The notes below the pieces were generated by a model. It did no database searches and had not been told where the DNA came from. It worked only from the letters and a program-made list of their open reading frames with translations. From an uncultured Candidatus Nitrosopumilus sp. (GTDB lineage: Archaea > Thermoproteota > Nitrososphaeria > Nitrososphaerales > Nitrosopumilaceae), in assembly GCA_905612485.1 (NCBI GenBank), contig CAJQSE010000010.1, positions 1 to 54,868 on the forward strand: a stretch of 54,868 nt of DNA, in the 5' to 3' direction. A program made the translations under genes and the position numbers. The first letter of the stretch is position 1. Every line of letters starts with the position of its first letter. Of the stretch, positions 1 to 29,172 are shown one piece after another.

Positions 1-402
1 AATCACAGAGTCATCACTTGTTGAAACAGATGATACAGATTGTTTAGATTCTTGAGCTTGCGTTATACTCATAATTCCTTCTTTAATTAAAAATTGAATT
101 CCTTGAACAAATGCAGCGTCATCAATTGTTCCTTCTGCCCACCAGCCTGCATTATTTTTAATCCATGATGGGATGTCATTAGTAGAACTTACACCTTGTG
201 TGGTTGCAGGAATTTCCATGATTCCCTCTTTGATCAAGAATTGAATTCCTTGAACAAATGAGTCATCATCAATTGTTCCATCAGCCCACCAACCTGCATT
301 ATTTTTTACCCAAGATGGAACTTCTGCATAAACAGATGGAATACTTGAAGTAACAAGTAGTAGTGCTGCAATTGTAGAAATTGTGGTTAGCATGATTTTC
401 AT
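1..402 (-). CDS. Secreted WIKNNAGWWA-repeat protein (C-terminus outside window)
   Basis: The reading frame is open from an ATG at 402 to the left edge (134 codons, no stop), so the gene is partial. Residues 1-26 form a signal peptide (MKIM, then a hydrophobic stretch ending in VYA). Two repeats of about 40 residues follow, each with the core W-[IV]-K-N-N-A-G-W-W-A and then DGTIDD-type and FVQGIQFLIKEGIM-type segments. The same repeat occurs in the protein at 28468-29172. The repeat is common in secreted thaumarchaeal proteins; its function is not known to me. Its promoter carries the locus-wide box at 452-460, 50 bp from the ATG, which suggests it belongs to the neighbouring regulon. Confidence 0.85.
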   Translation of the reverse strand, partial: MKIMLTTISTIAALLLVTSSIPSVYAEVPSWVKNNAGWWADGTIDDDSFVQGIQFLIKEGIMEIPATTQGVSSTNDIPSWIKNNAGWWAEGTIDDAAFVQGIQFLIKEGIMSITQAQESKQSVSSVSTSDDSVI

Positions 403-423
403 TATTTGTTTAATGTGATAATT

Positions 424-460
424 GTATTTAACATAGTGTCAAATCAAAGTCTAGTGCTAA
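424..460 (-). promoter_or_regulatory. Promoter of the repeat protein with TTAGCACTA box
   Basis: On the minus strand a TATA-like element (about 424-431) is centred about 26 bp before the ATG at 402, as expected for a leaderless transcript. TTAGCACTA (452-460, plus-strand TAGTGCTAA) lies about 20 bp further upstream, its near edge 50 bp from the ATG. A weaker copy, plus-strand TAGTGTCAA, is at 434-442. The box is read from sequence; its role is inferred from the shared spacing at other promoters in this locus. Confidence 0.65.
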
Positions 461-551: not shown

Positions 552-1103
552 GTGAATAAAAAAGAACGAGGAATAGACAATAAAAGTTACAAAGAACTAG
601 CATTACAAGATATCCATATATTTGTAAAAACAAGATTTACGGAAGTAAAAAAATCTAAGAAAATAAAAGATCTAGTTTCGTTTCAAACCACAAATAAATT
701 TTTAATTATGGCGCACAGTCAAGAAGAATTAAAAATATTGGGAAGAATTGTTGCAAGTAATAATAAGAATAATTTATCAGAAATATTAATTGAATATGAA
801 GAGCATCTCAATTTAGCTTTAGAATGTATACCTACAACTAAAACACATAGTAATGTATTGATGCATATTTTTGGATTTTTTTCTAATGAATTTTTAGATT
901 TTGAAAAAAATAAATTTTTTGAATTACAAGAGAATTATAAAAAAGGAAAAATCACAATTGGTACAATTCTTGGAGATATACACCCAATAATTTATAGATT
1001 CAATAAAATATATCTGGCTAGTCAAACATATTTTCTTTTGTATGCAAATCAAGAATCACAAAGTATTTTTAAAATTCTAGATGAAAAAAACTTTAAAATT
1101 TAA
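552..1103 (+). CDS. YbgA-like DUF1722 protein
   Basis: This 183-residue protein matches the DUF1722 (YbgA) family: F-V-K-T-R-F near residue 24, K-F-L-I-M-A-H-S near 49-56, then a G-R-I-V-A segment and a helical C-terminus. The family's biochemical role is unresolved, but in Escherichia coli ybgA is directly upstream of the photolyase gene, and it recurs in bacterial light-response clusters. The GTG start is supported by a TATA box 26 bp upstream (leaderless). Here it lies 9 kb from the photolyase but in the same locus, which supports a link to light or UV stress. I see no catalytic residues that would define an activity. Confidence 0.75.
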   Translation: MNKKERGIDNKSYKELALQDIHIFVKTRFTEVKKSKKIKDLVSFQTTNKFLIMAHSQEELKILGRIVASNNKNNLSEILIEYEEHLNLALECIPTTKTHSNVLMHIFGFFSNEFLDFEKNKFFELQENYKKGKITIGTILGDIHPIIYRFNKIYLASQTYFLLYANQESQSIFKILDEKNFKI

Positions 1104-1129: not shown

Positions 1130-2557
1130 TTATGAAAAATCAGTATTGTAAACAGGTCTAGATCCAATAGGAACTTCAGCAGCAGCAGATTCAGATACAG
1201 GCTTACCTTTTGCCTGATAAACTCTCACTTTATGAAATACATTATGTGATGAAAATATAGCTAATCCTGCAATTACCACACCAATGAAGTTACGTATTGT
1301 AGTATCAATACTAGGCTGTGAAGCTACTAATGAAATATCAAATACCACATAGAAATTATCAAATGACCAAAACGCCATTGTTACCCACGACAATATACCG
1401 CCAATCAAATAACCTAGTCTTGCCTTCTGCCTAACAAAAGATATTGCAAACAATATTGCAGCATACCAAATAATTGAACCAACTAACCATGGAATTTGCC
1501 AAACATCACTCCGGTCATCCATCCAATAATAAGTAGTTCCAATAAACGCCATTGCACAAAGAGTAATCAAAAGTATTTTTTGATTTATTTTATAGGATGT
1601 TTTTTCCTCTCCAGATTTTGTTATTGGTCTGAATGCTTTAGCTTCTTCCCTAGCATCTGCAATTGCCTCAGTCATAGGTTTGAGTTGAACTGGAACTAAT
1701 TGATCAATGGATTTATCTTTGACAACTGAATCATGAACTAAACTATCTACAAGAGGTCTTGCTAAGGATGCTTTAACAGGAGTTACCAGATCAATCCAAT
1801 ATGAGGATAATCGTGGAGTTAAAAATGGTATTTGAATTACAGTTAAATTTCTATTAAGAATATAGGAATACAATCTCATTAATTGTTCATATGTCATAAT
1901 ATCAGGGCCACCAATTTCTAAAACTTTTCCAGATGTTTCAAAATTTTTCATTACCCCGATTAAATAATCAACAACATTGTCTACTGCAATTGGTTGTGTT
2001 TGAGATTTAACCCATTTAGGACAAACCATAAGAGGTAATCTTTCAACAAGATAGCGAAGCATGGCATAAGAGCCACCTTCAGATCCAACAATTAATGATG
2101 CTCTTAATTCAGTAACAGGAATAGGTCCAGATGCTAAAATTCTACCAACATCATGCCTACTTTGCATATGCTTTGATAAATCTAAACTTTCATTGACCAA
2201 TCCTCCAAGATAAATAATTCGCTTTACTCCAGATTCAGTTGCAGATTTTAAGAAATTTTCTGCCTGTTGCTTTTCTCTAGTTGCAAATTTTGCCCAATCC
2301 TTTTTGGATCCTTCCATTGAATGTAGTAAATAAAATGCAATTTCAATTCCTTTTGTAGCAGTAGTTAGTGAATCTATATCAAAAGCATCTGCCTGGACAT
2401 ATTGGATATTTTTAGTATCAGGATGTTTTGAACGAGACATAGCCTTGGTAGTGTATCCAGAATCAGATAATTGCGCCAATAGTTTTTTTCCAATAAATCC
2501 AGTTGATCCAGTGACCAAAATATTAAATGCTTTATTTTGAATTAATTTTTCAGCCAT
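1130..2557 (-). CDS. SDR-family NAD(P)-binding protein with C-terminal membrane helices
   Basis: The N-terminal ~300 residues are an atypical short-chain dehydrogenase/NmrA-like domain (COG0702 type). The Rossmann motif TGSTGFIG is at about 16-23, with YLLHSM and RIIYLGGL segments typical of the group. The C-terminal ~150 residues contain about four hydrophobic helices, so the enzyme is probably membrane-tethered. The ATG lies 2 bp after the stop of the upstream gene, making it the last gene of a three-gene operon driven by the boxed promoter at 3145-3182. Related SDRs accompany photolyase and amine-oxidase-like genes in bacterial light-response loci. The substrate is unknown; a lipid or isoprenoid substrate is possible given the membrane helices. 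Confidence 0.75.
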   Translation of the reverse strand: MAEKLIQNKAFNILVTGSTGFIGKKLLAQLSDSGYTTKAMSRSKHPDTKNIQYVQADAFDIDSLTTATKGIEIAFYLLHSMEGSKKDWAKFATREKQQAENFLKSATESGVKRIIYLGGLVNESLDLSKHMQSRHDVGRILASGPIPVTELRASLIVGSEGGSYAMLRYLVERLPLMVCPKWVKSQTQPIAVDNVVDYLIGVMKNFETSGKVLEIGGPDIMTYEQLMRLYSYILNRNLTVIQIPFLTPRLSSYWIDLVTPVKASLARPLVDSLVHDSVVKDKSIDQLVPVQLKPMTEAIADAREEAKAFRPITKSGEEKTSYKINQKILLITLCAMAFIGTTYYWMDDRSDVWQIPWLVGSIIWYAAILFAISFVRQKARLGYLIGGILSWVTMAFWSFDNFYVVFDISLVASQPSIDTTIRNFIGVVIAGLAIFSSHNVFHKVRVYQAKGKPVSESAAAEVPIGSRPVYNTDFS

Positions 2558-2938: not shown

Positions 2939-3124
2939 TCATTTTGCTGTAATAGTCAGTTTCCCACTAAGAGAAACAGTACCTGTTGGCACTACTTGAC
3001 CATCTTTTGTTATCTTACCAGCCATCTCAAGATTTTCGAAATCATAAGTGATTGAGGCATGTTTTTGAGTAAGTTTTTCAAAGATTTCAGCAAGTAGATT
3101 TGCCCATTCTTGTTCTTCTGCCAT
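2939..3124 (-). CDS. Small hypothetical protein, first gene of boxed operon
   Basis: This 61-residue protein (MAEEQEW...) has an acidic N-terminal helix followed by a beta-rich tail with a VSLSGKLTI segment. No family is recognised. The frame could extend to 3163, but the TATA box at about 3146-3153 sits 26 bp upstream of the ATG at 3124, so that ATG (or the one at 3133) is the realistic leaderless start. It heads an operon with the 2560-2931 gene and the SDR. Confidence 0.6.
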   Translation of the reverse strand: MAEEQEWANLLAEIFEKLTQKHASITYDFENLEMAGKITKDGQVVPTGTVSLSGKLTITAK

Positions 3125-3144: not shown

Positions 3145-3182
3145 GATATTTAAAAAACAACAAAAACTAATCATAGTGCCAA
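3145..3182 (-). promoter_or_regulatory. Operon promoter with TTGGCACTA box
   Basis: The minus-strand TATA element (TTTAAATA, about 3146-3153) is centred 26 bp from the ATG at 3124. TTGGCACTA (3174-3182) lies 20 bp upstream of it, its near edge exactly 50 bp from the ATG. It shares the intergenic space with the divergent promoter of the CarH-like gene. Confidence 0.65.
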
Positions 3183-3210: not shown

Positions 3211-3247
3211 TTAGCACTAGAAATTAATATTACCATTATTTTATATA
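3211..3247 (+). promoter_or_regulatory. Promoter of the CarH-like gene with TTAGCACTA box
   Basis: TTTATATA at 3240-3247 is centred 25-26 bp before the ATG at 3269 (leaderless). TTAGCACTA at 3211-3219 ends 50 bp before the ATG, 20 bp upstream of the TATA box. TTACCATTA at 3230-3238 is a weaker variant abutting the TATA box. A box in the regulator's own promoter suggests autoregulation. Confidence 0.65.
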
Positions 3248-3268: not shown

Positions 3269-4123
3269 ATGGTCTACATTAGGGCTAAAAAAGTTAAATC
3301 TGATCAATATCTGTATCTAGTCAAAAGTGTTTGGGATTCTAAAAAAAAGACATCAAAACAAAAAATAATAAAATATCTTGGAAAGGCATCACTAGTGGTA
3401 AAAGATGACGTTCCAATTGAATTTAGAAACGATGCTAAAATTCTATCAGTGTTAGCATCGTACAACCCACAAGATATACAAAAAAGAGAAGATGCGACAA
3501 AAAAATCAAGGCATCAATTATTGAAAAAATTAACAGATGGAAATATAGATGGATCTATAAAAATTTACAAAGAGTATGTAAATATATTCAGTATATCAGA
3601 TTTCTTTGATAAGATCCTTAGACCTGTAATGACTAAAATAGGTTCAGATTGGGAGACAGGAAAATTATCAGTTGCAACAGAACATGTAGCAAGTAACGTA
3701 GCCCAAACATTAGTAAAAATAATTATGGACCAGGTTTCAAGTGTAAAAAATAAAAAGAAAATATTACTTTGTGTGCCACTAGGTGAAGAACATCACATAG
3801 GATGTGATGTACTTGAAACATATCTAACAATAAAAGGTTTCAAAGTATTCAACATGGGAACTTCAGTTCCAAGTGATGTATTAATAGAATTTATAGATAT
3901 GGAAAAACCAGACATAGTTTTAATTTCAATTACAATTAATGATAATATATTAGCAGGGCAAAGATTAGTAAAAAAAATTAAAGAACAAAGTAAAATTCCA
4001 GTACTAGTAGGAGGGTATGCATTACAAGGAGATAATATTCCAAAATTTGAGGGAAATGTAATAGGAGATACTAGACTTGATGAAATTCCAAAAATTCTAC
4101 GAAATAGTACACTACTTAATTAA
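3269..4123 (+). CDS. CarH-like B12-binding putative photoreceptor with non-MerR N-terminal domain
   Basis: This 284-residue protein has three parts. Residues 1-40 are a basic domain (YIRAKKVK, then YLYLVKSVWD, then IIKYLGK) resembling the short N-terminal module of some IS1634-type transposases. Residues ~80-155 are a four-helix B12-binding cap. Residues ~163-270 are a Rossmann-like B12-binding domain. The lower-ligand motif E-x-H-x-x-G is present (E173, H175, G178). So is the light-sensor signature W-x9-E-H (W128, E138, H139) that in CarH covers the adenosyl group of AdoCbl. The usual MerR DNA-binding domain is absent. By homology it would sense adenosylcobalamin and light in the cytoplasm. 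DNA binding through the N-terminal domain is my inference. The gene has its own boxed promoter and overlaps the convergent CrtI-like gene by 12 bp. A corrinoid methyltransferase subunit is the alternative, but no methyltransferase gene is near. Confidence 0.8.
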   Translation: MVYIRAKKVKSDQYLYLVKSVWDSKKKTSKQKIIKYLGKASLVVKDDVPIEFRNDAKILSVLASYNPQDIQKREDATKKSRHQLLKKLTDGNIDGSIKIYKEYVNIFSISDFFDKILRPVMTKIGSDWETGKLSVATEHVASNVAQTLVKIIMDQVSSVKNKKKILLCVPLGEEHHIGCDVLETYLTIKGFKVFNMGTSVPSDVLIEFIDMEKPDIVLISITINDNILAGQRLVKKIKEQSKIPVLVGGYALQGDNIPKFEGNVIGDTRLDEIPKILRNSTLLN

Positions 4124-5467
4124 AGAATTTAAAAAAGATTTAATTTTTGGATGACATAGAATAGAACTATGTGCTGCAGAATCAGTTCCAATACCATAGC
4201 TAATTGTAGAGTCACCAACAAAAAATAAACCTTCAATGCCAGGAATTTGGTGGGGCATCTTAGACTTCCAAACTTTACCAGGTTCCTTAACAACAGATTC
4301 AACTAATTTCCACGCCATAGGACGTTCCCAAAGTAATGCAGAATTAAATTTAGGATAAATTGAAGATATTTCTTCCTTCATTTTAGTAACAATATTTTGA
4401 ACTTTTCTAGAATCTTCAGTATCATCAGACGATACAGGAGTTCCTGCAATTATCAAATGCTCTCCAGCAGGTGAAACTGAAGGAGTGATATTAGATATAA
4501 AAAAGATCCCCTTAGTGACATAGTCCTTACCAACTGGAAATACAACTTGGCGAGTATCTATTTGTGAATTTAATGCAAAATGCACTTCAACAACAGAAGT
4601 TGTTTTATTTAATTTATTGATTTTTTCAATAAATTTTAGATTAATAATATTTTTTTCAAATAATTGATTTAGTGCAGTGTATGCAGGGTATGAAACCACC
4701 ACGGAATTTGTAGGAATTATTTTTTTAGCATTTAAAGAATCAATTACAACAACACCAGTAACTTTAGAATCTTTAATAATTATTTTTTTTACGGATTGTT
4801 TAGTTTTAAGAATTCCATTGTGTTCTAAAATAAAATCTCCAAGAACATGACATATTGAATCATATCCACCACCGTCAGGATATGCAAATTCGCTTGTGCC
4901 ACCCTTGAATGGATTAGCACGAATAATAGTTCTGGCAAATTCACCTAATGAAATATGATCAGCAGTGTCGGCAAAAGCTAGCATGCATACAGCTTCAAAA
5001 AAAGCATTTGTATCAGCATCTAAATCATGAGTTATTTTTGTTAGAGGTATGTCATCCCACAATTCAGTTTTTTCAATTGAAGAAAATGCTAATGGAAGTA
5101 ATAATTTAAGGAGTCGAATTCTACTTTTAAAAGGAATTAAAGATAGGCGAAGTAAATCAACCATACCTTTAGGATAGATATGAAAGCCTGTTGTGGCATA
5201 AAATGCAATATCATCAACTTTCGCTAGTTTTAATCTAGATTCAATACCTAAATTTTTTAAAATAGTAAAAATTGCAGATTTTTTGTAAAATGGCATAATA
5301 TGAAATCCATTATCAAGAATGTGATTTTTAAATTTCATTGATGCAGTTCGTCCACCTAACTTGGTTGATTTTTCTAAAACAATTACATCATGACTGTCAT
5401 GGGCTAACAAAGCACCAGTAGTTAAACCACCTACGCCTGCACCTATAATGATTGTAGGAAGAGACAT
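4112..5467 (-). CDS. CrtI/amine-oxidase-type FAD oxidoreductase
   Basis: This 451-residue flavoprotein begins with the dinucleotide-binding motif IIGAGVGGL, followed by LEKSTKLGGRTAS (the R of GGR is typical of phytoene desaturase-type enzymes). It ends with the C-terminal FAD motif GLFFVGDST..GIGTDSA. Family members desaturate or isomerise carotenoids or oxidise amines. No phytoene synthase or other carotenoid gene is in the window, so the substrate is unknown. Similar flavoproteins sit beside photolyase genes in bacterial LitR/CarH loci. It has its own boxed promoter (5490-5525) and converges on the CarH-like gene with a 12-bp overlap. Confidence 0.8.
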   Translation of the reverse strand: MSLPTIIIGAGVGGLTTGALLAHDSHDVIVLEKSTKLGGRTASMKFKNHILDNGFHIMPFYKKSAIFTILKNLGIESRLKLAKVDDIAFYATTGFHIYPKGMVDLLRLSLIPFKSRIRLLKLLLPLAFSSIEKTELWDDIPLTKITHDLDADTNAFFEAVCMLAFADTADHISLGEFARTIIRANPFKGGTSEFAYPDGGGYDSICHVLGDFILEHNGILKTKQSVKKIIIKDSKVTGVVVIDSLNAKKIIPTNSVVVSYPAYTALNQLFEKNIINLKFIEKINKLNKTTSVVEVHFALNSQIDTRQVVFPVGKDYVTKGIFFISNITPSVSPAGEHLIIAGTPVSSDDTEDSRKVQNIVTKMKEEISSIYPKFNSALLWERPMAWKLVESVVKEPGKVWKSKMPHQIPGIEGLFFVGDSTISYGIGTDSAAHSSILCHPKIKSFLNSLIK

Positions 5468-5489: not shown

Positions 5490-5525
5490 TATTTAATAGA
5501 GCCTAACTTAATGTAATAGTGCTAA
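5490..5525 (-). promoter_or_regulatory. Promoter of the CrtI-like gene with TTAGCACTA box
   Basis: The TATA element TATTAAATA (about 5490-5498 on the minus strand) is centred 26-27 bp from the ATG at 5467. TTAGCACTA (5517-5525) is 18-20 bp upstream of it and 50 bp from the ATG. It lies in the short gap downstream of the SRPBCC gene, which shows that the CrtI-like gene has its own promoter. Confidence 0.65.
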
Positions 5526-6352: not shown

Positions 6353-6416
6353 TTTTTATAAAAAGGAATAATTAAAAAAAAACTAGTGCCAGAAAAATAA
6401 AAAAAACTAGTGCTAA
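6353..6416 (-). promoter_or_regulatory. Promoter of the 119-aa/SRPBCC operon with two boxes
   Basis: The TATA element TTTTTATAAA (about 6353-6363) is centred near 26 bp from the ATG at 6334. CTGGCACTA (6384-6392), a one-base variant of the box, has its near edge 50 bp from the ATG. A second perfect copy, TTAGCACTA, is at 6408-6416. Both read in the direction of this operon. Confidence 0.65.
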
Positions 6417-6449: not shown

Positions 6450-6485
6450 TTACCACTAGATAAGAAATTTTTAGTCTTTTAAATA
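6450..6485 (+). promoter_or_regulatory. Promoter of the TFB paralogue with TTACCACTA variant box
   Basis: TTTAAATA at 6478-6485 is centred 25-26 bp before the ATG at 6507 (leaderless). TTACCACTA at 6450-6458 ends 49 bp before the ATG. It differs from the consensus at the fourth base, C for G. The variant also occurs at 14028-14036 and, inverted, at 492-500. Confidence 0.6.
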
Positions 6486-6506: not shown

Positions 6507-7418
6507 ATGTTAACTGAATTAGTTCATCAAAGAAATTGTAAAAAAAATGAAATGATTACAGATGCATATACAGGTGAAGTGGTATGTGGTAGTTGTGGCA
6601 GTGTATCATCTGACAAAGTAGTTGATCTAGGTTCTGAATCAGTTGGTTTGAATCCAAATGATTATCTAAATAATTCCAGAGTGGGTGCAAAAAGATCATT
6701 AAAAATGATTGACATGGGATTGTCAACAATAATTGAAGCCAAGGATAGAGATGTTACAGGAAAACCATTATCATTAGAAAATAGAAGAATGTTTTACAGA
6801 TTAAGAATGTGGGATAGAAATAGTCGCTCAGCAGCATCTTCTAGATCATTTCAAAAAGCATTCATATTATTAGATGCAATTAGTTCAAAGTTAGGATTAC
6901 CTGAATCAGTTGTTGAAGAAACAGCATATTTATTTAGAAAAATTGCAGCAAGAAAAGTTTTAGCAGGTAGATCTACATCTGCAATGTTGTGTGCAGCAAT
7001 TTACATTACGTGTAGAATTACAGATACACCTAGAACACTACAGGATGTTGTGAATGCAGGGAATGTTAAGAAAAAAGTATTACAAAGAACATATAGATTT
7101 ATTGCCAAAGAATTAGATTTAAGCCCTGAAGCATATTCTCCATCAGAGTTTGTTACAAGAATTTCAAAGGGATTAACACTTTCTCAAAAAACACAAAGGT
7201 TAGCATTTAAAATATTAGATTTATGTGCAAAAAAACAAGTTTCAACGAGTAAAAATCCAATGTCGATGGCAGCAGCTGCAGTATATCTTGCATCAACGAT
7301 AACAGTCGAAGACGTGTCACAATTAAAAATTTCCAAAATCTCAGGAATTAGTGCAGTTACAATTAGAGAAAGAAGTAAAGAAATAGTAATGAAAGTAGGG
7401 GATGTAACAATTGGGTAG
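6507..7418 (+). CDS. tfb: Divergent transcription initiation factor TFB paralogue
   Basis: This 303-residue protein has the TFB layout: N-terminal zinc ribbon, B-finger/linker and two cyclin-like repeats (about 105-195 and 200-295). The zinc ribbon is degenerate. C11 and the C27-x2-C30 pair are present, but the position of the first cysteine (residue 8) is Gln, with His7 beside it as a possible substitute ligand. The linker keeps the family pattern (MIDMGLSTII, GKPLS). It is clearly different from the canonical TFB at 23105. Multiple TFBs in archaea can direct promoter-specific transcription. Its location and boxed promoter suggest a role in the local regulon. Confidence 0.88.
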   Translation: MLTELVHQRNCKKNEMITDAYTGEVVCGSCGSVSSDKVVDLGSESVGLNPNDYLNNSRVGAKRSLKMIDMGLSTIIEAKDRDVTGKPLSLENRRMFYRLRMWDRNSRSAASSRSFQKAFILLDAISSKLGLPESVVEETAYLFRKIAARKVLAGRSTSAMLCAAIYITCRITDTPRTLQDVVNAGNVKKKVLQRTYRFIAKELDLSPEAYSPSEFVTRISKGLTLSQKTQRLAFKILDLCAKKQVSTSKNPMSMAAAAVYLASTITVEDVSQLKISKISGISAVTIRERSKEIVMKVGDVTIG

Positions 7419-8341: not shown

Positions 8342-8743
8342 TCAAAAATTTTGAGATTCAACAAATTCAACAATAGAAAGGACTTCACCCATTTGAACAA
8401 GATGACCATAACTAGTGTTTTTAGCATTTTTCATAGGTTTGTTATTAACACTAATGAAAAGCATTTTACCATCAGAAAGAGGAATACTAATTCTTTTAAT
8501 TTTTGAATAAGAGGTAATAGAGTATAATCCATTTCCAACATGTTCAGAGATAGAAGCATAATTGTCCCATTCACTCCTAGATCTAGACATAGTTGCTTTT
8601 GTTTTTTCTATAGGGACAATATTGCTAACACCATTTCTTTGACTATTCCAAAGTAATTGACCACTTGCATCAGATACAGCTGCAAAACGTACTGATTCGT
8701 TGAAATCCATAAGCATATTCAAAAGTTGTTCATATTTTTCCAT
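8342..8743 (-). CDS. DUF6659/roadblock-like protein
   Basis: This 133-residue cytoplasmic protein begins with a helix (YEQLLNMLMD), then a strand-turn-strand FAAVSDASGQLLW like the roadblock/profilin-type core. It continues with RISIPL and MLFISV strands and a C-terminal helix. It matches the thaumarchaeal DUF6659 pattern as I recall it. It has a close paralogue at 8821-9228. Such folds often act as small sensor or GTPase-partner modules; no ligand is visible. It heads an operon with the membrane-anchored protein and has a boxed promoter 51 bp upstream. Confidence 0.65.
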   Translation of the reverse strand: MEKYEQLLNMLMDFNESVRFAAVSDASGQLLWNSQRNGVSNIVPIEKTKATMSRSRSEWDNYASISEHVGNGLYSITSYSKIKRISIPLSDGKMLFISVNNKPMKNAKNTSYGHLVQMGEVLSIVEFVESQNF

Positions 8744-8765: not shown

Positions 8766-8802
8766 TTAATATAATATTCTAAATTTTAAAGTCTAGTGCC
8801 AA
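8766..8802 (-). promoter_or_regulatory. Promoter of the DUF6659-like operon with TTGGCACTA box
   Basis: The TATA element TATTATATTA (8766-8775) is centred 26-28 bp from the ATG at 8743. TTGGCACTA (8794-8802) lies 18 bp upstream of it, 51 bp from the ATG. Confidence 0.65.
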
Positions 8803-8820: not shown

Positions 8821-9228
8821 TTATTCCTCAAAAGTGTTAACAAAATCAACAATAGACATTATTTTGCCCATTTCAACATAACGACCATAACTTTTTGTTT
8901 TTGTTTTATTGAGTGGTATATTATCAACATACACCATCAATAAATGAAATGCATCTAACGGAACGGTAATTTGTTTAATTTTTTGAAATGATGCAATGTG
9001 ATACATTGCCCTACCAAGATCATCAGAATCTTCAATTTTACAACGCTCAATCCAATCTGCAGATTCATGTGTAAGAGTTTTTTTTATTTCAGGTAAAGGA
9101 ACTTGAACTTTAGAATCATCCCTAATAGTATTCCACAAAATATTTCCAGAAGTATCACTAATAGCAGTGAATATAATTGTTGTATCATAATCCATTAGCA
9201 TATGCAAAAGTTTTTCATATCTTGACAT
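8821..9228 (-). CDS. DUF6659/roadblock-like protein, paralogue
   Basis: This 135-residue protein is homologous along its length to the 8342-8743 product: YEKLLHMLMD, then FTAISDTSGNILW, then KQITVPL and LLMVYV strands, then SYGRYVEMGKIMSIVDFV. The frame could extend upstream to 9261, but ATG at 9228 gives the same N-terminus as the paralogue and follows a TATA-like element by about 25 bp. It has no box in the correct orientation. The box at 9281-9289 belongs to the divergent DICT gene, though it could act on both. Confidence 0.65.
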   Translation of the reverse strand: MSRYEKLLHMLMDYDTTIIFTAISDTSGNILWNTIRDDSKVQVPLPEIKKTLTHESADWIERCKIEDSDDLGRAMYHIASFQKIKQITVPLDAFHLLMVYVDNIPLNKTKTKSYGRYVEMGKIMSIVDFVNTFEE

Positions 9229-9280
9229 TATGAATATTAAAGATTTATAGAATAAAAACAATTACGAAATTAAAAAATAA

Positions 9281-9317
9281 TTGGCACTAGTATTGCAAAA
9301 TATAATTAATTTATAAC
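9281..9317 (+). promoter_or_regulatory. Promoter of the DICT-photolyase operon with TTGGCACTA box
   Basis: AATTTATAA (about 9308-9317) is centred 26-27 bp before the ATG at 9340. TTGGCACTA at 9281-9289 ends 51 bp before the ATG and 19 bp before the TATA box. This puts the photolyase gene under the box through the DICT gene ahead of it. Confidence 0.65.
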
Positions 9318-9339: not shown

Positions 9340-9894
9340 ATGAAAAATCCTTATGGTGATTTTGTGCATGAAATATGGGAAGAATTTCCACAATTGTCTG
9401 AATGGCATAATTTAGATAACAAAATTTTACCAATATGGAAACTAGAACAATTCATTGAAGCAGGTTATCATAATTTCGATGCAGGTAGAAAACCACTATA
9501 CCACCTAAGTAAAATAATTGAAAAGTATGCTCAAGAAAATAAAGAACCACTACTAGCAACATTTGAAAAAATTGCAAAATTCTCATATGTTAAGGAAAGA
9601 TATCAAAAAATGGTCAAAGACATGCCTAAAGTATGGATTATTGCTGATTTTGATGATGAAGTGATTCCAGCAGATGTAGTGTTGCCAAATTCAGAATTTC
9701 TAAGTTGTAGTAATACAAACTTAGCAAATGTATGGTCAGTTTTTACCAGAGGGCCATATGGACCATTTGGATTAATAGCTGAAGAGTATGAAGATGGAAA
9801 ATTCAGAGGCTTTTTTACACTTAATTCCAATGTATGCAGGCATGTTCTAAATGTAATGGGTAAAACATTAGGAAGTAAATTCGATATTCAATAA
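9340..9894 (+). CDS. DICT-domain-like sensory protein 1
   Basis: This 184-residue protein has a helical N-terminus (~1-55) and a C-terminal region that fits the DICT domain: LLATFEKIAKFSYVKERYQKM near 68-90, WIIADF, a W-S-V-F-T-R-G strand, GLIAEEYEDGKFRGFFTLNS near 145-165. DICT was named from diguanylate cyclases and two-component proteins and has been linked to light responses. Here it stands alone without an output domain. The photolyase gene begins 21 bp downstream, so they form an operon. A paralogue lies just after the photolyase. Domain assignment is from pattern recognition only. Confidence 0.6.
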   Translation: MKNPYGDFVHEIWEEFPQLSEWHNLDNKILPIWKLEQFIEAGYHNFDAGRKPLYHLSKIIEKYAQENKEPLLATFEKIAKFSYVKERYQKMVKDMPKVWIIADFDDEVIPADVVLPNSEFLSCSNTNLANVWSVFTRGPYGPFGLIAEEYEDGKFRGFFTLNSNVCRHVLNVMGKTLGSKFDIQ

Positions 9895-9915: not shown

Positions 9916-11262
9916 ATGTATAAAAAATCATTATTCATTTTCCGTAGAGATTTAAGATTAGAAGATAATGTAGGGCTAATGGAATCCCTCCAAAAATCTA
10001 CAGAAGTAATTCCATGTTTTATCTATGATGAAAATTTGATTAAAAATTTTAAAGATTCAAAATTTAGATGGAATTTTCTTAATGAATCATTAGTAGATTT
10101 AGATGTAGAATTAAACAAAAATGGAGCCAGGTTACAAATACTAGAAGGAGAGCCAGAAAAAACATTAGATAAGATAATTAAAAAGTATAATGTAGATGCA
10201 GTGTTTTTAAATACAGATTTTACCAATTATTCACAAAATCGAGATGAAAAAATATATCAAAATTGTAAAAAAAATAAAATATCATTTCATAGTACATTAG
10301 ATTTTTTACTTCACAATCCAAATGAAATAAAAACTAATGAAGGTTCACCATACACAATTTATTCATTTTTTTATAAAAAAGCAAAACAAATACCAATTAG
10401 AAATATCATTAAAAATATTAAAAAAAATTATTCAAAAGAAATTATTTCAGATGATAAAATTAAAAATTCTAAAATAAAAAATAATGAAATTATAGGAGGA
10501 CGTAGAGAAGCATTAAAGATTTTAAGAAACTTAGATAAATTTAGAAATTATGACAAAATAAGAGATTTTCCAGGATTAAACCAAACAACGATGCTTTCGG
10601 CGCATAACAAATTTGGAACAATTTCAATTAGAGAAATTCACAATCAGATTAAAGAGGTTTTAGGCTTAGATCATACAATAATGGGTGAAATATACTGGCG
10701 AGAATTTTTTAGCTACATATTATTTCATTTCCCACACGCTCAAAAAACATCATTTAGACAAAAATTCCAAAAAATACCATGGTCAAAATCTAAAGAATCC
10801 TTTAAAAAATGGAGTGAAGGAAAAACAGGATTTCCAATTGTGGATGCAGGAATGAGACAATTGAATGAAACAGGATTTATGCATAATAGAGTCAGAATGA
10901 TTGTAGCATCATTTCTGACTAAAGATCTACATATCGATTGGAGATGGGGAGAAAAATATTTTGGAGAAAAATTAATTGATTACGATCCAGCTGTAAATTC
11001 AGGTAATTGGCAATGGGCAGCATCAACAGGATGTGATTCAGTTCCATATTTTCGAATTTTTAATCCATGGAGACAACAAGAAAGATTTGATGTTAATTGT
11101 GATTATATTAAAAAATGGATTCCAGAATTAGAAAAAATAGAACCAAAAATTATTCATAATTTGTGGAAAGAATTTCCAAAAAAATTAAAATATCCAAAAC
11201 CAATGTTAATCCATAAAATTGAAGCAGAAAAAACAAAGCAAATTTTTAAATCGCAAAAATAA
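9916..11262 (+). CDS. phr: Class I CPD photolyase / cryptochrome-family protein
   Basis: This 448-residue protein has both domains of the family: an N-terminal alpha/beta antenna domain (KKSLFIFRRDLRLEDN) and a C-terminal helical FAD-binding domain with E-I-Y-W-R-E-F-F, GFMHNRVRM, WRWGEKYF and the signature NWQWAASTGCD..PYFRIFNPWRQ. These match light-dependent cyclobutane pyrimidine dimer photolyases. A cryptochrome role cannot be excluded from sequence. It would repair UV lesions using blue light. Cotranscription with DICT protein 1 from the boxed promoter at 9281 suggests light or stress induction. Confidence 0.93.
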   Translation: MYKKSLFIFRRDLRLEDNVGLMESLQKSTEVIPCFIYDENLIKNFKDSKFRWNFLNESLVDLDVELNKNGARLQILEGEPEKTLDKIIKKYNVDAVFLNTDFTNYSQNRDEKIYQNCKKNKISFHSTLDFLLHNPNEIKTNEGSPYTIYSFFYKKAKQIPIRNIIKNIKKNYSKEIISDDKIKNSKIKNNEIIGGRREALKILRNLDKFRNYDKIRDFPGLNQTTMLSAHNKFGTISIREIHNQIKEVLGLDHTIMGEIYWREFFSYILFHFPHAQKTSFRQKFQKIPWSKSKESFKKWSEGKTGFPIVDAGMRQLNETGFMHNRVRMIVASFLTKDLHIDWRWGEKYFGEKLIDYDPAVNSGNWQWAASTGCDSVPYFRIFNPWRQQERFDVNCDYIKKWIPELEKIEPKIIHNLWKEFPKKLKYPKPMLIHKIEAEKTKQIFKSQK

Positions 11263-11268
11263 AATAAT

Positions 11269-11306
11269 TTGGCACTATTTTAAAAAATTATTAGTGTATT
11301 ATATAC
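11269..11306 (+). promoter_or_regulatory. Promoter of DICT protein 2 with TTGGCACTA box
   Basis: TATTATATAC at 11297-11306 is centred about 25-26 bp before the ATG at 11327. TTGGCACTA at 11269-11277 ends exactly 50 bp before the ATG. The box begins only 7 bp after the photolyase stop codon, so DICT protein 2 has its own promoter. Confidence 0.65.
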
Positions 11307-11326: not shown

Positions 11327-11878
11327 ATGAATGAACATTTTGTAAGTTTTATTGATGACATATGGAATACATTTCCAACATTTAAAGAAATAAAAAATAC
11401 AGATCTTACAAACCATAACATATTATGGACATTAGAGGAATATCGTAAAGCAAATTATGTTAATTTCAGGACAGGTAAAAAGGAACTATACAGGCTCAGT
11501 ATTTTATTAGAAAATTATGCAGTAAAGCATAACACCCCATTATTGGCTACTTTTGAAACGGAAGCCAGATACAAGTACGTTGAAGAGCGTTACAGAGAAA
11601 TTTTAGATAAAATTTCAAAAGCATGGATAATTGGTAATTTTAATAATCCAGATTTAGCTCCACATCCTCCACCATCTGCAGAAGTAGTAAGTTGTGATGG
11701 AACAAATATTTCTCCAATGTGGATTGTCATTACAAAAGGTGAAAACGGTCCATTTGGATTAGTTGCTGAGGATATTGGAGATGATCAATACAGAGGGTTC
11801 TTTACAACAAACTCAGATATCATAACAAGGGTAATAGAAAATATACAGGAACAACTAAAAATTAAAATTACAATATAA
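11327..11878 (+). CDS. DICT-domain-like sensory protein 2
   Basis: This 183-residue protein is homologous to the 9340-9894 product throughout: FVSFIDDIWNTFP at the N-terminus, LLATFETEARYKYVEERYREI, AWIIGNF, WIVITKGENGPFGLVAED and RGFFTTNSD. The two paralogues flank the photolyase and each has a TTGGCACTA promoter box, which suggests duplication with retained regulation. A sensory role is inferred from the DICT assignment; no effector domain is present, so it probably acts through a partner. Confidence 0.6.
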   Translation: MNEHFVSFIDDIWNTFPTFKEIKNTDLTNHNILWTLEEYRKANYVNFRTGKKELYRLSILLENYAVKHNTPLLATFETEARYKYVEERYREILDKISKAWIIGNFNNPDLAPHPPPSAEVVSCDGTNISPMWIVITKGENGPFGLVAEDIGDDQYRGFFTTNSDIITRVIENIQEQLKIKITI

Positions 11879-11967: not shown

Positions 11968-12831
11968 TTATATGGTTTGGATGATTTCAGATTTTTTGGA
12001 TTGAATAAGTTTTAAAATTTTTGTAATTGAAAGATTTTGTCCAATAGAAGCATTCCAGTTTTCTGAAGCATTTTTTACAGCTTGACCTCCAATAATAATT
12101 GGAATGGCATATTTATCATTAATTTTTTGAATCATTCTTTTAGCAGATAAAATATTTTCATCAAGGGTAATAGAAACAAAAATACAATCAGGATTATTGT
12201 ATTCAATAGATTCCATTATTAATGAAATAGGTGTAAAAGGAGAAAGATTGTAAACGGTATTTCCTGTAGATGAGAGTTGCGATTCAAGTACTTTTGTACC
12301 TAACGTATGTTGCTCACCATAAGGTACACAAATCAAGATTTTTTTTGTTTTTAATTGACTGTGGTTATTTTCTAAAATTAAATTCATTAAATCTTGTACT
12401 GCATTATAACAAGTTGTTTGCGTACCTAAATCAATTTTTTTGGAATATCCCAATGATTCGATTTCTTCAATCAAAGGAATCAAAACATCATTAAGAAATG
12501 ACTCAAAACCATATATTTTTTTGTATGATCCAAGTAAAGAATTTGCTTCGATATAATCACCATTTTTGAAAGATAAAAGTAAATCTTTTTGAAGTTTTTT
12601 AATTATTTCATTTTGAACGGTAGGTTGAAAATATTTTTGATTCATAAAATAGTCAATTATTTTTTCAGAATCTCTAAAATTTTCAGGAATATCAGAAATA
12701 GATACACCAGATTCTATTCCTAAATATTTGATAATACTCTGTTTTGATGTCTTTTTTTTAGAATCCCAGACACTTTTTACTAGATAAAGGTATTTTTGGT
12801 CACGAATGGATTTTACTCTCAAATATGCCAT
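11968..12831 (-). CDS. B12-binding protein paralogue lacking the light-sensor motif
   Basis: This 287-residue protein aligns without gaps over the key region with the CarH-like protein at 3269. The N-terminal domain is nearly identical (YLYLVKSVWDSKKKTSKQ). The lower-ligand motif is kept (E173-x-H175-x2-G178), but the W-x9-E-H signature is lost: G128 replaces Trp and Q138-T139 replace Glu-His. It should bind cobalamin but not respond to light as CarH does. A frame opens at 12903, but ATG at 12831 matches the paralogue's start. No TTRGCACTA box is at the usual spacing, so it may be controlled differently. It could be a dark-constitutive partner or competitor of the first protein. Confidence 0.78.
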   Translation of the reverse strand: MAYLRVKSIRDQKYLYLVKSVWDSKKKTSKQSIIKYLGIESGVSISDIPENFRDSEKIIDYFMNQKYFQPTVQNEIIKKLQKDLLLSFKNGDYIEANSLLGSYKKIYGFESFLNDVLIPLIEEIESLGYSKKIDLGTQTTCYNAVQDLMNLILENNHSQLKTKKILICVPYGEQHTLGTKVLESQLSSTGNTVYNLSPFTPISLIMESIEYNNPDCIFVSITLDENILSAKRMIQKINDKYAIPIIIGGQAVKNASENWNASIGQNLSITKILKLIQSKKSEIIQTI

Positions 12832-13029: not shown

Positions 13030-13590
13030 ATGAGTTATACAGAGATTAGTCAGGATCATTTGGAATCACTTGATAATACACACATCTTACTATTTCACGA
13101 AGAGCAAAAAAAGGCTGAAGAAATAGAATTTAATTTTATTAAAACAGGTTTGGAAATGGAGCAACGTTGTTTCTATACAACTAATGATATTGAAAAATTA
13201 AAGGAAAATATGAAAAAATTTGGAATTGATGTTGAAAATAATATTAAAAAGGGATTACTAAACATAGTTCCAATTCCAAAAGAATTTGAAAATTATGAAA
13301 AAATGATTTCAGCAAAAGTAGAATCGCTACCACAAGATGGAAAAATTAGAGTGGTCTCAACACATTATTTTGATTTTAATACTGATAAAAAAACAGAATC
13401 AATGGAAGAAATAGAGCAATGCGTGGATGATAATTTTCATAAAATTCCAGGAAATTTTATTTGTTCATTTCATGTACCAAGTGTCGATAAAAAATTGGCA
13501 CCACAATTTATGAAGAATTTACTTGATTCACATCACGAAATCTTGTTTCTTACCGAAGACAATAAAATAGAAAAATTCAATTTTGTCTAA
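13030..13590 (+). CDS. MEDS-domain sensory protein
   Basis: This 186-residue protein fits the MEDS domain (methanogen/methylotroph DcmR sensory domain): HILLFHEEQKKAEEIEFNFIKTGLEMEQRCFYTT at the N-terminus, then LKENMKKFGIDVENNIKKGLLNIV, and a C-terminal FICSFHVPS strand. MEDS domains are thought to sense small molecules and usually sit beside regulatory domains; here the domain is alone. It overlaps the convergent winged-helix gene by 4 bp. Its presence beside DICT and B12 sensors makes this locus rich in stand-alone sensory domains. Confidence 0.7.
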   Translation: MSYTEISQDHLESLDNTHILLFHEEQKKAEEIEFNFIKTGLEMEQRCFYTTNDIEKLKENMKKFGIDVENNIKKGLLNIVPIPKEFENYEKMISAKVESLPQDGKIRVVSTHYFDFNTDKKTESMEEIEQCVDDNFHKIPGNFICSFHVPSVDKKLAPQFMKNLLDSHHEILFLTEDNKIEKFNFV

Positions 13591-13996: not shown

Positions 13997-14047
13997 TTAT
14001 CACTAAATTTAGCACTAGGTTATTTCTTTACCACTATTTTAAATATA
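13997..14047 (+). promoter_or_regulatory. Promoter with three tandem boxes
   Basis: Three direct copies precede the 14075 gene: TTATCACTA (13997-14005), TTAGCACTA (14009-14017) and TTACCACTA (14028-14036). A TATA element TTTAAATATA follows at about 14038-14047. The perfect copy ends 58 bp before the ATG, and the last copy abuts the TATA box. This is the densest box cluster in the window. Confidence 0.65.
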
Positions 14048-14074: not shown

Positions 14075-14389
14075 ATGCAACAAGCAATACAAAAGAAAAC
14101 ACCTCAATCAAAATTCATAGTAATGGTGGCAATTGCAACTGCAGTAATACTGGTGTTTACAGTCACACCTTGGAACATACTTCCAACATCAGTAACTGAG
14201 CAAGTACAAGTTATCGCCATAACGGATTACGGTTGTGTTGCTGAATCAGTTTTAGGACATTCAGTTGTTGTTGAAAACTGTCAAGCAAAAGTTGGAGATA
14301 TAATTTCTGCAACATTCAATGTTCCAGCAATGGAACAAAATGGATACTATGATAAAATCCATGAAAAGTTAGAAAAGATAACTCCATAA
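14075..14389 (+). CDS. Small single-pass membrane-anchored protein
   Basis: This 104-residue protein has a short basic N-terminus, one transmembrane helix (about 15-35, FIVMVAIATAVILVFTV) and a ~65-residue outward-facing domain. That domain has two cysteines (54, 69) that could form a disulfide and a DYGCVAESVLGHSVVVENC segment. No family is recognised. Three copies of the locus box lie upstream, so it is probably a target of the same regulator. Confidence 0.65.
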   Translation: MQQAIQKKTPQSKFIVMVAIATAVILVFTVTPWNILPTSVTEQVQVIAITDYGCVAESVLGHSVVVENCQAKVGDIISATFNVPAMEQNGYYDKIHEKLEKITP

Positions 14390-28262: not shown

Positions 28263-28478
28263 ATGCCAATTCCATGTAAATTACCAATTCTAAAAAATAT
28301 TAGTTACCTTAGCGGAATGATGTTCATATTTTCATTATTTGTTCCACTAATTTCTGAAACGCCATCAACAGTTGATATTAATTCACTAACAATAATTTCA
28401 ATAACTGGAATGATCATATCGTTTGGAATAGGTATGAAGATTAGAAAAAAACTAGCAAAGAAAAAAGTTAATTGGTAA
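28263..28478 (+). CDS. Small two-helix membrane protein
   Basis: This 71-residue protein has two hydrophobic helices (about 16-31 and 43-58) with a polar loop, and a lysine-rich C-terminus. It overlaps the end of the convergent repeat-protein gene by 11 bp. No family is recognised. Confidence 0.5.
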   Translation: MPIPCKLPILKNISYLSGMMFIFSLFVPLISETPSTVDINSLTIISITGMIISFGIGMKIRKKLAKKKVNW

Positions 28479-29172
28479 TTTTCATAAATCCTTCTTGTAC
28501 CAAAAATTGAATTCCTTGTACAAATGAAGCATCATCAATGGAGCCATCAGCCCACCAGCCTGCATTGTTTTTAATCCAGACAGGAATTTTGTTACTATCT
28601 GTTCCGGAACCTTGTTGAGTTACAGGAATTTTCATAAATCCTTCTTGTACCAAAAATTGAATTCCTTGTACAAATGAAGTATCATCAATGGAGCCATCAG
28701 CCCACCAGCCTGCATTGTTTTTAATCCAGACAGGAATTTCAGACGTGTTTGATGCCGTTGTAGAAGTATTTCCAGCACTAATCAGAAAAGAGAACGTGTT
28801 TACAGTGGATTTAGAATTCCCATATTGAGATCTAACAATATATTTCCCATCAGAGAATTTTTCACTTAATTCTACGGTGTAAGAGAATTTACCATAATTA
28901 TCAACAGGTATTTTTTTAGTTATGATTAAATTTTTACTAAAATCAAAAACAGAAATTCGCAAAGAACGGTCTTCATCATATTTATTTACAGAACCAGTAA
29001 ACATTACAGATTCTCCAAGAGCATATGATTCTTGGTTAGATGTAATTTCTACAGTGTAGTTATTTGCAGAATTATTTTCAGGAGGACCGCCATACCCAAA
29101 AGCAGATTGACCTATTGCAGAAACAGCAAATATAGAAACCATTGTAATGATGAAAAATGTGTTAAGTTTCAT
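28468..29172 (-). CDS. Secreted Ig-like protein with two WIKNNAGWWA repeats
   Basis: This 234-residue protein has a signal peptide (about 1-27), an Ig-like domain of about 95 residues (VEITSNQESYALGESVMFTGSV then DGKYIVRSQYGN) and two ~40-residue repeats with the core WIKNNAGWWADGSIDD and FVQGIQFLVQEGFMKI. The Ig-like part resembles macroglobulin/bacterial surface-adhesion modules. The repeat is shared with the partial gene at 1-402. It is probably cell-surface located; function unknown. Confidence 0.8.
   Translation of the reverse strand: MKLNTFFIITMVSIFAVSAIGQSAFGYGGPPENNSANNYTVEITSNQESYALGESVMFTGSVNKYDEDRSLRISVFDFSKNLIITKKIPVDNYGKFSYTVELSEKFSDGKYIVRSQYGNSKSTVNTFSFLISAGNTSTTASNTSEIPVWIKNNAGWWADGSIDDTSFVQGIQFLVQEGFMKIPVTQQGSGTDSNKIPVWIKNNAGWWADGSIDDASFVQGIQFLVQEGFMKITN
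28478..28739 (-). repeat. Near-identical 150-bp-period coding duplication
   Basis: Segments 28478-28589 and 28628-28739 are identical over 112 bp except for one base. They lie at an exact 150-bp offset, which is 50 codons. The near identity at synonymous sites shows recent duplication or gene conversion within the gene. Confidence 0.92.

Follow-up and report, generated by a model that had tools for sequence, protein, structure and literature searches.

We describe here a protein of ammonia-oxidising archaea that would bind AdoCbl, sense light and control the transcription of a photoprotection regulon; it would do the work of CarH/LitR but contact DNA through another kind of module, a reading to which we give a probability of roughly 0.6. 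Its gene lies in a stretch of 54,868 nucleotides from an uncultured Candidatus Nitrosopumilus sp., which was analysed as a whole and is called the window below. Light is well known to inhibit ammonia oxidation (PMC9239080), and searches of the open-access literature found neither an archaeal B12 photoreceptor nor any light sensor described in ammonia-oxidising archaea. The regulator is not a one-off: of 250 genomes of the family, about half encode full-length relatives (123 once the weak matches of methionine-synthase type are removed), and others occur further out in the class. The protein and its parts are the following.

3269..4123, + strand: B12 photoreceptor-like regulator, 284 aa, ATG start (ORF, Pfam, orthologue alignment, model)
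3269..3388, + strand: N-terminal basic three-stranded β-sheet, residues 1-40, candidate DNA-binding domain (model, conservation, remote profile matches)
3512..3724, + strand: four-helix cap, PF02607, with W128-x9-E138-H139 (Pfam, alignment, model)
3761..4021, + strand: Rossmann B12-binding domain, PF02310, with E173-x-H175-x2-G178 (Pfam, alignment, model)

The cobalamin module was recognised by Pfam as B12-binding_2 (PF02607) at residues 82-152 (E 2.9e-11) followed by B12-binding (PF02310) at residues 165-251 (E 2.7e-12), and neither MerR nor any other Pfam domain was matched at the N-terminus. The motifs W128-x9-E138-H139 and E173-x-H175-x2-G178 sit exactly where the original prediction had placed them, and five of their six residues are invariant: among the 39 orthologues, down to 40% identity, G125, W128, E138, H139, G172, E173, H175 and P201 never vary, and G178 is a glycine in 34. 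This invariance indicates that the motif residues are selected, and a chance motif is thereby ruled out. The signature of light-responsive cobalamin domains given in the SignatureFinder text (PMC11796333), namely GxxW, EH, GxxH and GxxxP, which CtMerR and the other light-responsive CBD proteins of that text also carry, is present in the regulator with all four elements; across the 39 orthologues the first three are invariant, as is the P of GxxxP, the G of which is found in 19. The AlphaFold2 model, built with 39 sequences, has a pLDDT of 89 and orders the chain as a three-stranded sheet (strands 2-9, 12-23 and 28-39), then helices, then a Rossmann fold. Its top PDB match by Foldseek is the photocobilin 8j2x (E 2.8e-13), and the T. 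thermophilus CarH structures 5c8d and 8c31 are also among the best fold matches (TM about 0.84-0.85 over the CarH B12 domain, E about 1e-12). The conserved residues and the modelled fold thus lead us to predict that the C-terminal half forms an AdoCbl pocket of the CarH/photocobilin type, and the proposal of a CarH-like B12 sensor module devoid of MerR agrees with both the Pfam search and the fold match.

The likeness to CarH/LitR (T. thermophilus CarH, PDB 5C8D) is that of the four-helix cap and Rossmann B12 domain with W-x9-E-H and GE-x-H-x2-G. The motifs had been said to define a CarH photoreceptor; they do match the AdoCbl photoreceptor signature (PMC11796333), but they do not prove light sensing, and the residue following W128, which occupies the position of CarH His132, is never a histidine in the 39 orthologues, where A, E, S, K, V, R, D or T stands instead. 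In TtCarH, His132 serves as the upper ligand in the light state and is required for the tetramer to come apart, which the H132A variant largely fails to do (PMC10442372); given this phenotype and the absence of the histidine from all 39 orthologues, the coupling to the output must differ. CarH/LitR proteins have a MerR helix-turn-helix and a His after the Trp, whereas the archaeal regulator has a β-sheet module and no such His; the absence of both places it outside CarH/LitR, and only residues 80-229 align with the CarH NCBIfam model (55 bits against a cut-off of 400). Most likely, then, it works like a CarH and is an analogue of CarH, not a CarH. The photocobilins (SasPcob, PDB 8J2W/8J2X) provide the best match to the PDB in fold and in sequence and also have a Trp without a following His, but they carry a C-terminal biliverdin domain, whereas the archaeal protein has an N-terminal basic module and promoter boxes. 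The fusion partners named in the main text of the SignatureFinder paper (PMC11796333) are HTH, DGC, BBD, GAF, MEDS, DICT and ANTAR, and the archaeal module is not among them.

The N-terminal module, announced as a basic domain of about 40 residues ending in K-Y-L-G in place of MerR, is real. It carries 12 K/R against 2 D/E over 39 residues, and 14 of its positions are invariant among the 39 orthologues (R5, K7, Y14, Y16, L17, V18, S20, W22, T28, Q31, K35, Y36, L37 and G38, the last four being the K-Y-L-G end). Residues 1-40 are the best-conserved region of the protein, with a mean major-residue frequency of 0.82 vs 0.61 elsewhere. The structure prediction suggested for this N-terminus and for the B12 domains was run, and yielded for the former a basic three-stranded sheet with a pLDDT of about 90 within the full model and of 93.6 when modelled alone by AlphaFold. 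The profile of the module has no PDB match, and the sheet alone, searched against PDB folds by Foldseek, gives nothing with E below 1; the PC4 and fluorescent-protein folds that come out at the top (best E 1.3) were taken as noise. There being no solved relative of the sheet, we take DNA binding from the charge, the conservation and the kinship with transposases. This kinship is remote: the profile matches long ORFs encoding DDE transposases (PF01609) and Fic proteins (PF02661), and for the transposases hhalign gives 81% probability over 32 columns. The proposed kinship with transposases is thus supported, but the label of an IS1634-type N-terminus was narrower than the evidence, which points to DDE transposases at large and to Fic proteins as well. 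The DDE (IS4-superfamily-like) transposases and the archaeal Fic proteins have the basic module Y-x-Y-L/Y-V/E-x-S ... K/G-Y-L/V-G in common with the regulator, but they possess a DDE or Fic catalytic domain, whereas the regulator has neither, Pfam finding no DDE domain in its 284 aa. Two Fic/DOC proteins have N-termini remotely related to the basic module (L178 2437-3351, - strand; L179 2999-3913, - strand), a kinship that suggests a mobile nucleic-acid-binding unit in archaea. In another family (f7), a 138-aa protein (L187 4492-4905, + strand) consists of the N-terminal module without a B12 domain.

The TTRGCACTA box is a real promoter element. Its exact form occurs 10 times in the window, always within the first 14 kb, and with at most one mismatch 49 times vs 20 expected; genome-wide (948 kb in 50 contigs, 73.6% complete, archaeal), 21 exact boxes face 9 for the reversed-pattern controls. 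The shuffle and reversed-pattern controls rule out a chance pattern. Ten genes or operons of the window are in register, with the box 57-59 bp before the start codon and the TATA at box +28 to +30; two of these ten boxes, at 6384 and 6450, have one mismatch. The link between the regulator and this box, which had been put forward from the start, is thus upheld: the box is over-represented in the window, phased to the TATA and placed ahead of the regulator gene itself. The elements are the following.

3211..3219, + strand: box 1 TTAGCACTA, at -58 of the regulator's own gene (sequence)
3230..3238, + strand: box 2 TTACCATTA, repeating box 1 in the same direction at a start-to-start distance of 19 bp, adjoining the TATA (sequence)
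3240..3246, + strand: TATA (TTTATAT) of the regulator gene, with leaderless-type spacing to the ATG (sequence, register statistics)
452..460, - strand: box TTAGCACTA of the left-end gene, TATA at +29, start of the NNAGWW-repeat protein at +58
3174..3182, - strand: box TTGGCACTA before the gene of about 60 aa at 3124, followed on the same strand by 2560-2937 and the SDR gene 1130-2557
5517..5525, - strand: box TTAGCACTA before the FAD amine-oxidase-like gene 4112-5467
6384..6392, - strand: box CTGGCACTA before the operon 6334-5538, with a second exact box at 6408-6416
6450..6458, + strand: box variant TTACCACTA before the TFB gene 6507-7418
8794..8802, - strand: box TTGGCACTA before gene 8342-8743
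9281..9289, + strand: box TTGGCACTA before gene 9340-9894, with the photolyase gene behind it
11269..11277, + strand: box TTGGCACTA before the weakly DICT-like gene 11327-11878
14009..14036, + strand: tandem box TTAGCACTA-N10-TTACCACTA before gene 14075-14389

A further box at 2986-2994 (+ strand) was rejected as a promoter element; it lies within a small gene, out of phase, and is attributed to chance. Among the 11 boxes found elsewhere in the genome, most of which are unphased background, one fits the promoter register (C4:636-644, - strand, locus L004) and precedes a predicted secreted protein.

The same arrangement recurs in the relatives. Upstream of the regulator gene, dozens of loci show TTAGCACTA-N10-TTAGCATTA directly followed by the TATA at a constant distance from the start codon, the spacing from box 1 to box 2 being 19 bp start to start, or 18 in a minority. 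In the collected loci, the TATA begins 29 or 30 bp from the box start for 145 of 304 boxes, vs none of the 14 sites of the reversed pattern. The comparison between genomes was made with the tandem and TATA-phased patterns in place of raw box counts, which were too noisy because background copies also occur in genomes without the regulator. The tandem box is present in 108 of the 123 genomes with the regulator vs 11 of the 127 without (p 3e-40), box-plus-TATA promoters number 298 in the former vs 12 in the latter, and this association remains strong when stratified by genus (CMH chi2 77). Of 12 homologues from outside the family, five are preceded by the tandem box, in four of these at -59, against a shuffle mean of 0.0005. 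The SDR gene is absent from all 26 regulator-minus genomes tested, so that box and protein come and go together as one block, and their co-occurrence is not enough to tell which member reads the box. The tandem direct repeats at the promoter recall those of the CarH operator, which are 11 bp long and overlap the promoter, but the archaeal repeats adjoin the TATA, are spaced by 19 bp and have another sequence; unlike CarH/LitR, the regulator is predicted to act at archaeal TATA/TFB promoters.

A neighbourhood of light-damage genes is common to CarH/LitR and to the archaeal regulator, as seen from the genes of the window.

552..1103, + strand: DUF1722 protein, PF08349 8.6e-31 (Pfam)
1130..2557, - strand: NmrA-type SDR with a membrane C-terminus, conserved neighbour (Pfam, locus comparison)
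4112..5467, - strand: FAD amine-oxidase/CrtI-like oxidoreductase (domain matches)
6507..7418, + strand: transcription factor B (TFB) paralogue, conserved neighbour (domain matches, locus comparison)
9916..11262, + strand: DNA photolyase, PF03441 2.9e-80, PF00875 6.7e-37 (Pfam)
13030..13590, + strand: MEDS sensory-domain protein, PF14417 4.2e-09 (Pfam)

In many loci the genes for the SDR, the regulator, the FAD enzyme and the TFB follow one another in this order, and an SDR-type gene still adjoins the regulator in a distant family (L180). A gap of 21 bp separates gene 9340-9894, a paralogue of the weakly DICT-like 11327-11878, from the photolyase gene downstream. The regulator is present in 50 of the 52 genomes that possess the photolyase, often within 3 kb of it, and in G216 a gap of about 17 bp lies between their genes; a TATA-phased box, on the other hand, precedes the photolyase in only 6 of 27 upstream regions. 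In bacteria, the LitR light-induced region comprises PhrB, an SDR and a FAD oxidoreductase (PMC9758184), and RudS, a DUF1722 fusion, is located in light operons (PMC11417400). The types of target genes thus overlap with those of the Pseudomonas class II LitR regulon (phrB, SDR, FAD oxidoreductase, ufaM; RudS operons), but the Pseudomonas regulators are of the bacterial MerR type, and in P. mendocina it is a LOV protein that drives the class II LitR. The position of the regulator among light-damage genes with a common box makes it probable that ammonia-oxidising archaea switch genes in response to light, in a manner not previously described.

Other genes of these loci deserve mention. Two secreted-type proteins of the window (1-402 and 28468-29172, both - strand) are built on the repeat W(I/V)KNNAGWWA(D/E)G(T/S)IDD..FVQGIQFL(I/V)(K/Q)EG, the first of them having the phased box 452-460. 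Between the TFB gene and the photolyase operon lie the related genes 8342-8743 and 8821-9261 (both - strand), which belong to no Pfam family; the first has a phased box, and elsewhere, too, both are encoded close to the photolyase (genomes of loci L089 and L090). In the genus g16, a winged-helix protein of the HVO_A0261_N type is encoded near the B12 regulator (L125 5085-5882, - strand; L143 8621-9415, + strand).

The mechanism we propose comprises five steps, of which the first two rest on the sequence, model and comparative evidence computed here and the last three are inferred. The C-terminal half would provide an AdoCbl pocket of the CarH/photocobilin type. The box TTRGCACTA marks a set of promoters, often as a direct repeat of 19 bp start to start, with the TATA in constant register. 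The basic three-stranded N-terminal sheet would read the box, including that of its own promoter; taken jointly, the pocket, the box promoters and the sheet as their reader appear to us rather probable. In the dark, an AdoCbl-bound oligomer seated on boxes 1 and 2 would block TFB/TBP, because box 2 occupies the BRE position. Light would break the Co-C bond, loosen the assembly and thereby turn on the photoprotection genes: the photolyase, the SDR, the FAD oxidoreductase, the TFB, the sensory partners and perhaps the DUF1722 protein.

If the first three steps are granted, the chances of dark repression and of light-dependent activation are evenly balanced. Repression is favoured by precedent, the CarH/LitR proteins characterised in PMC9304148 and PMC11417400 being dark repressors, and by box 2, which, where present, abuts the TATA at the BRE position. 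The same protein and box might instead compose a light- or AdoCbl-dependent activator that contacts TFB/TBP from box 1, upstream of the BRE; the nearly constant TATA offset of 29-30 bp at many promoters argues for it, as a repressor would tolerate more variation, and so does the better retention in the window of box 1, which leaves the BRE free, than of box 2. Set against the precedent and the place of box 2, this activator is possible, though rather unlikely. That the box is read by another protein, whether the TFB paralogue or a regulator encoded elsewhere, and that the B12 protein is a target or a cofactor-responsive partner without DNA specificity of its own, seems unlikely to us. Those of the tested genomes that lack the B12 protein also lack the SDR and the close TFB orthologue, and box 2 lies where TFB is expected to contact the BRE, but four genomes (G023, G216, G222, G226) have boxes and the B12 protein without a close TFB orthologue, which disfavours the TFB paralogue as reader. 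Against any other reader also stand the tandem box that marks the B12 gene itself across families, the basic N-terminus as the best-conserved part of the protein, and the protein-minus genome G101, in which a FAD-oxidoreductase relative, 60% identical, has no phased box upstream.

The signal itself could be the level of AdoCbl or the redox state, conveyed by the same box. The missing counterpart of His132 would fit such a sensor, as would the cobalamin synthesis genes of Thaumarchaeota (PMC4303638), which make AdoCbl status meaningful to these organisms. We nevertheless hold this to be quite improbable, since the regulon consists of photolyase, SDR and FAD oxidoreductase beside DUF1722, no cobalamin gene was seen among the box genes of the window, and the photocobilin also lacks a His after its Trp (W-Q) and yet responds to light (PMC11796333). 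The B12 fold is homologous to that of the corrinoid methyl-carrier proteins of the MtaC/MtbC type, and TIGR02370 matches with 57.5 bits, but this score is far under the cut-off of 215.3 bits and the W-x9-E-H cap is of the photoreceptor type. Orthologues beside methyltransferases had been envisaged as the contrary finding; in the loci examined no methyltransferase adjoins the gene, and light-damage genes are found in its place. A methyl-carrier is thus extremely improbable, and we reject this identity on the sub-cut-off score and the neighbourhood.

The preferred reading, an AdoCbl-dependent light-sensing regulator, would if true add a new DNA-binding partner to the B12 photoreceptors, suggest that regulation here has taken over a module of transposase type, and provide a light switch for archaea that is compatible with the TATA promoter. 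For culture tests, it names a light-sensor candidate, defines the promoter box to look for and lists the genes. In its most specific form, several families of ammonia-oxidising archaea would possess a B12-dependent light-switched regulator that reads DNA with a β-sheet akin to that of transposases, in strict TATA/TFB register, and thus an archaeal B12 photoreceptor and light regulon built independently of the MerR-type CarH; this form may equally prove right or wrong.

A second member of the family is encoded in the window, with no exact box seen upstream of it.

11968..12831, - strand: regulator paralogue, E-x-H-x2-G kept, W-x9-E-H lost (G125E, W128G, E138Q, H139T) (alignment)

Its N-terminal module is identical to that of the regulator at 28 of 40 positions (70%), the remainder at only about 22-32%. 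This paralogue, which lacks the light signature, probably reads the TTRGCACTA box but is blind to light, standing to the regulator as CarA does to CarH. In several genomes, for example G166 and G171, the photolyase gene lies near that of the paralogue.
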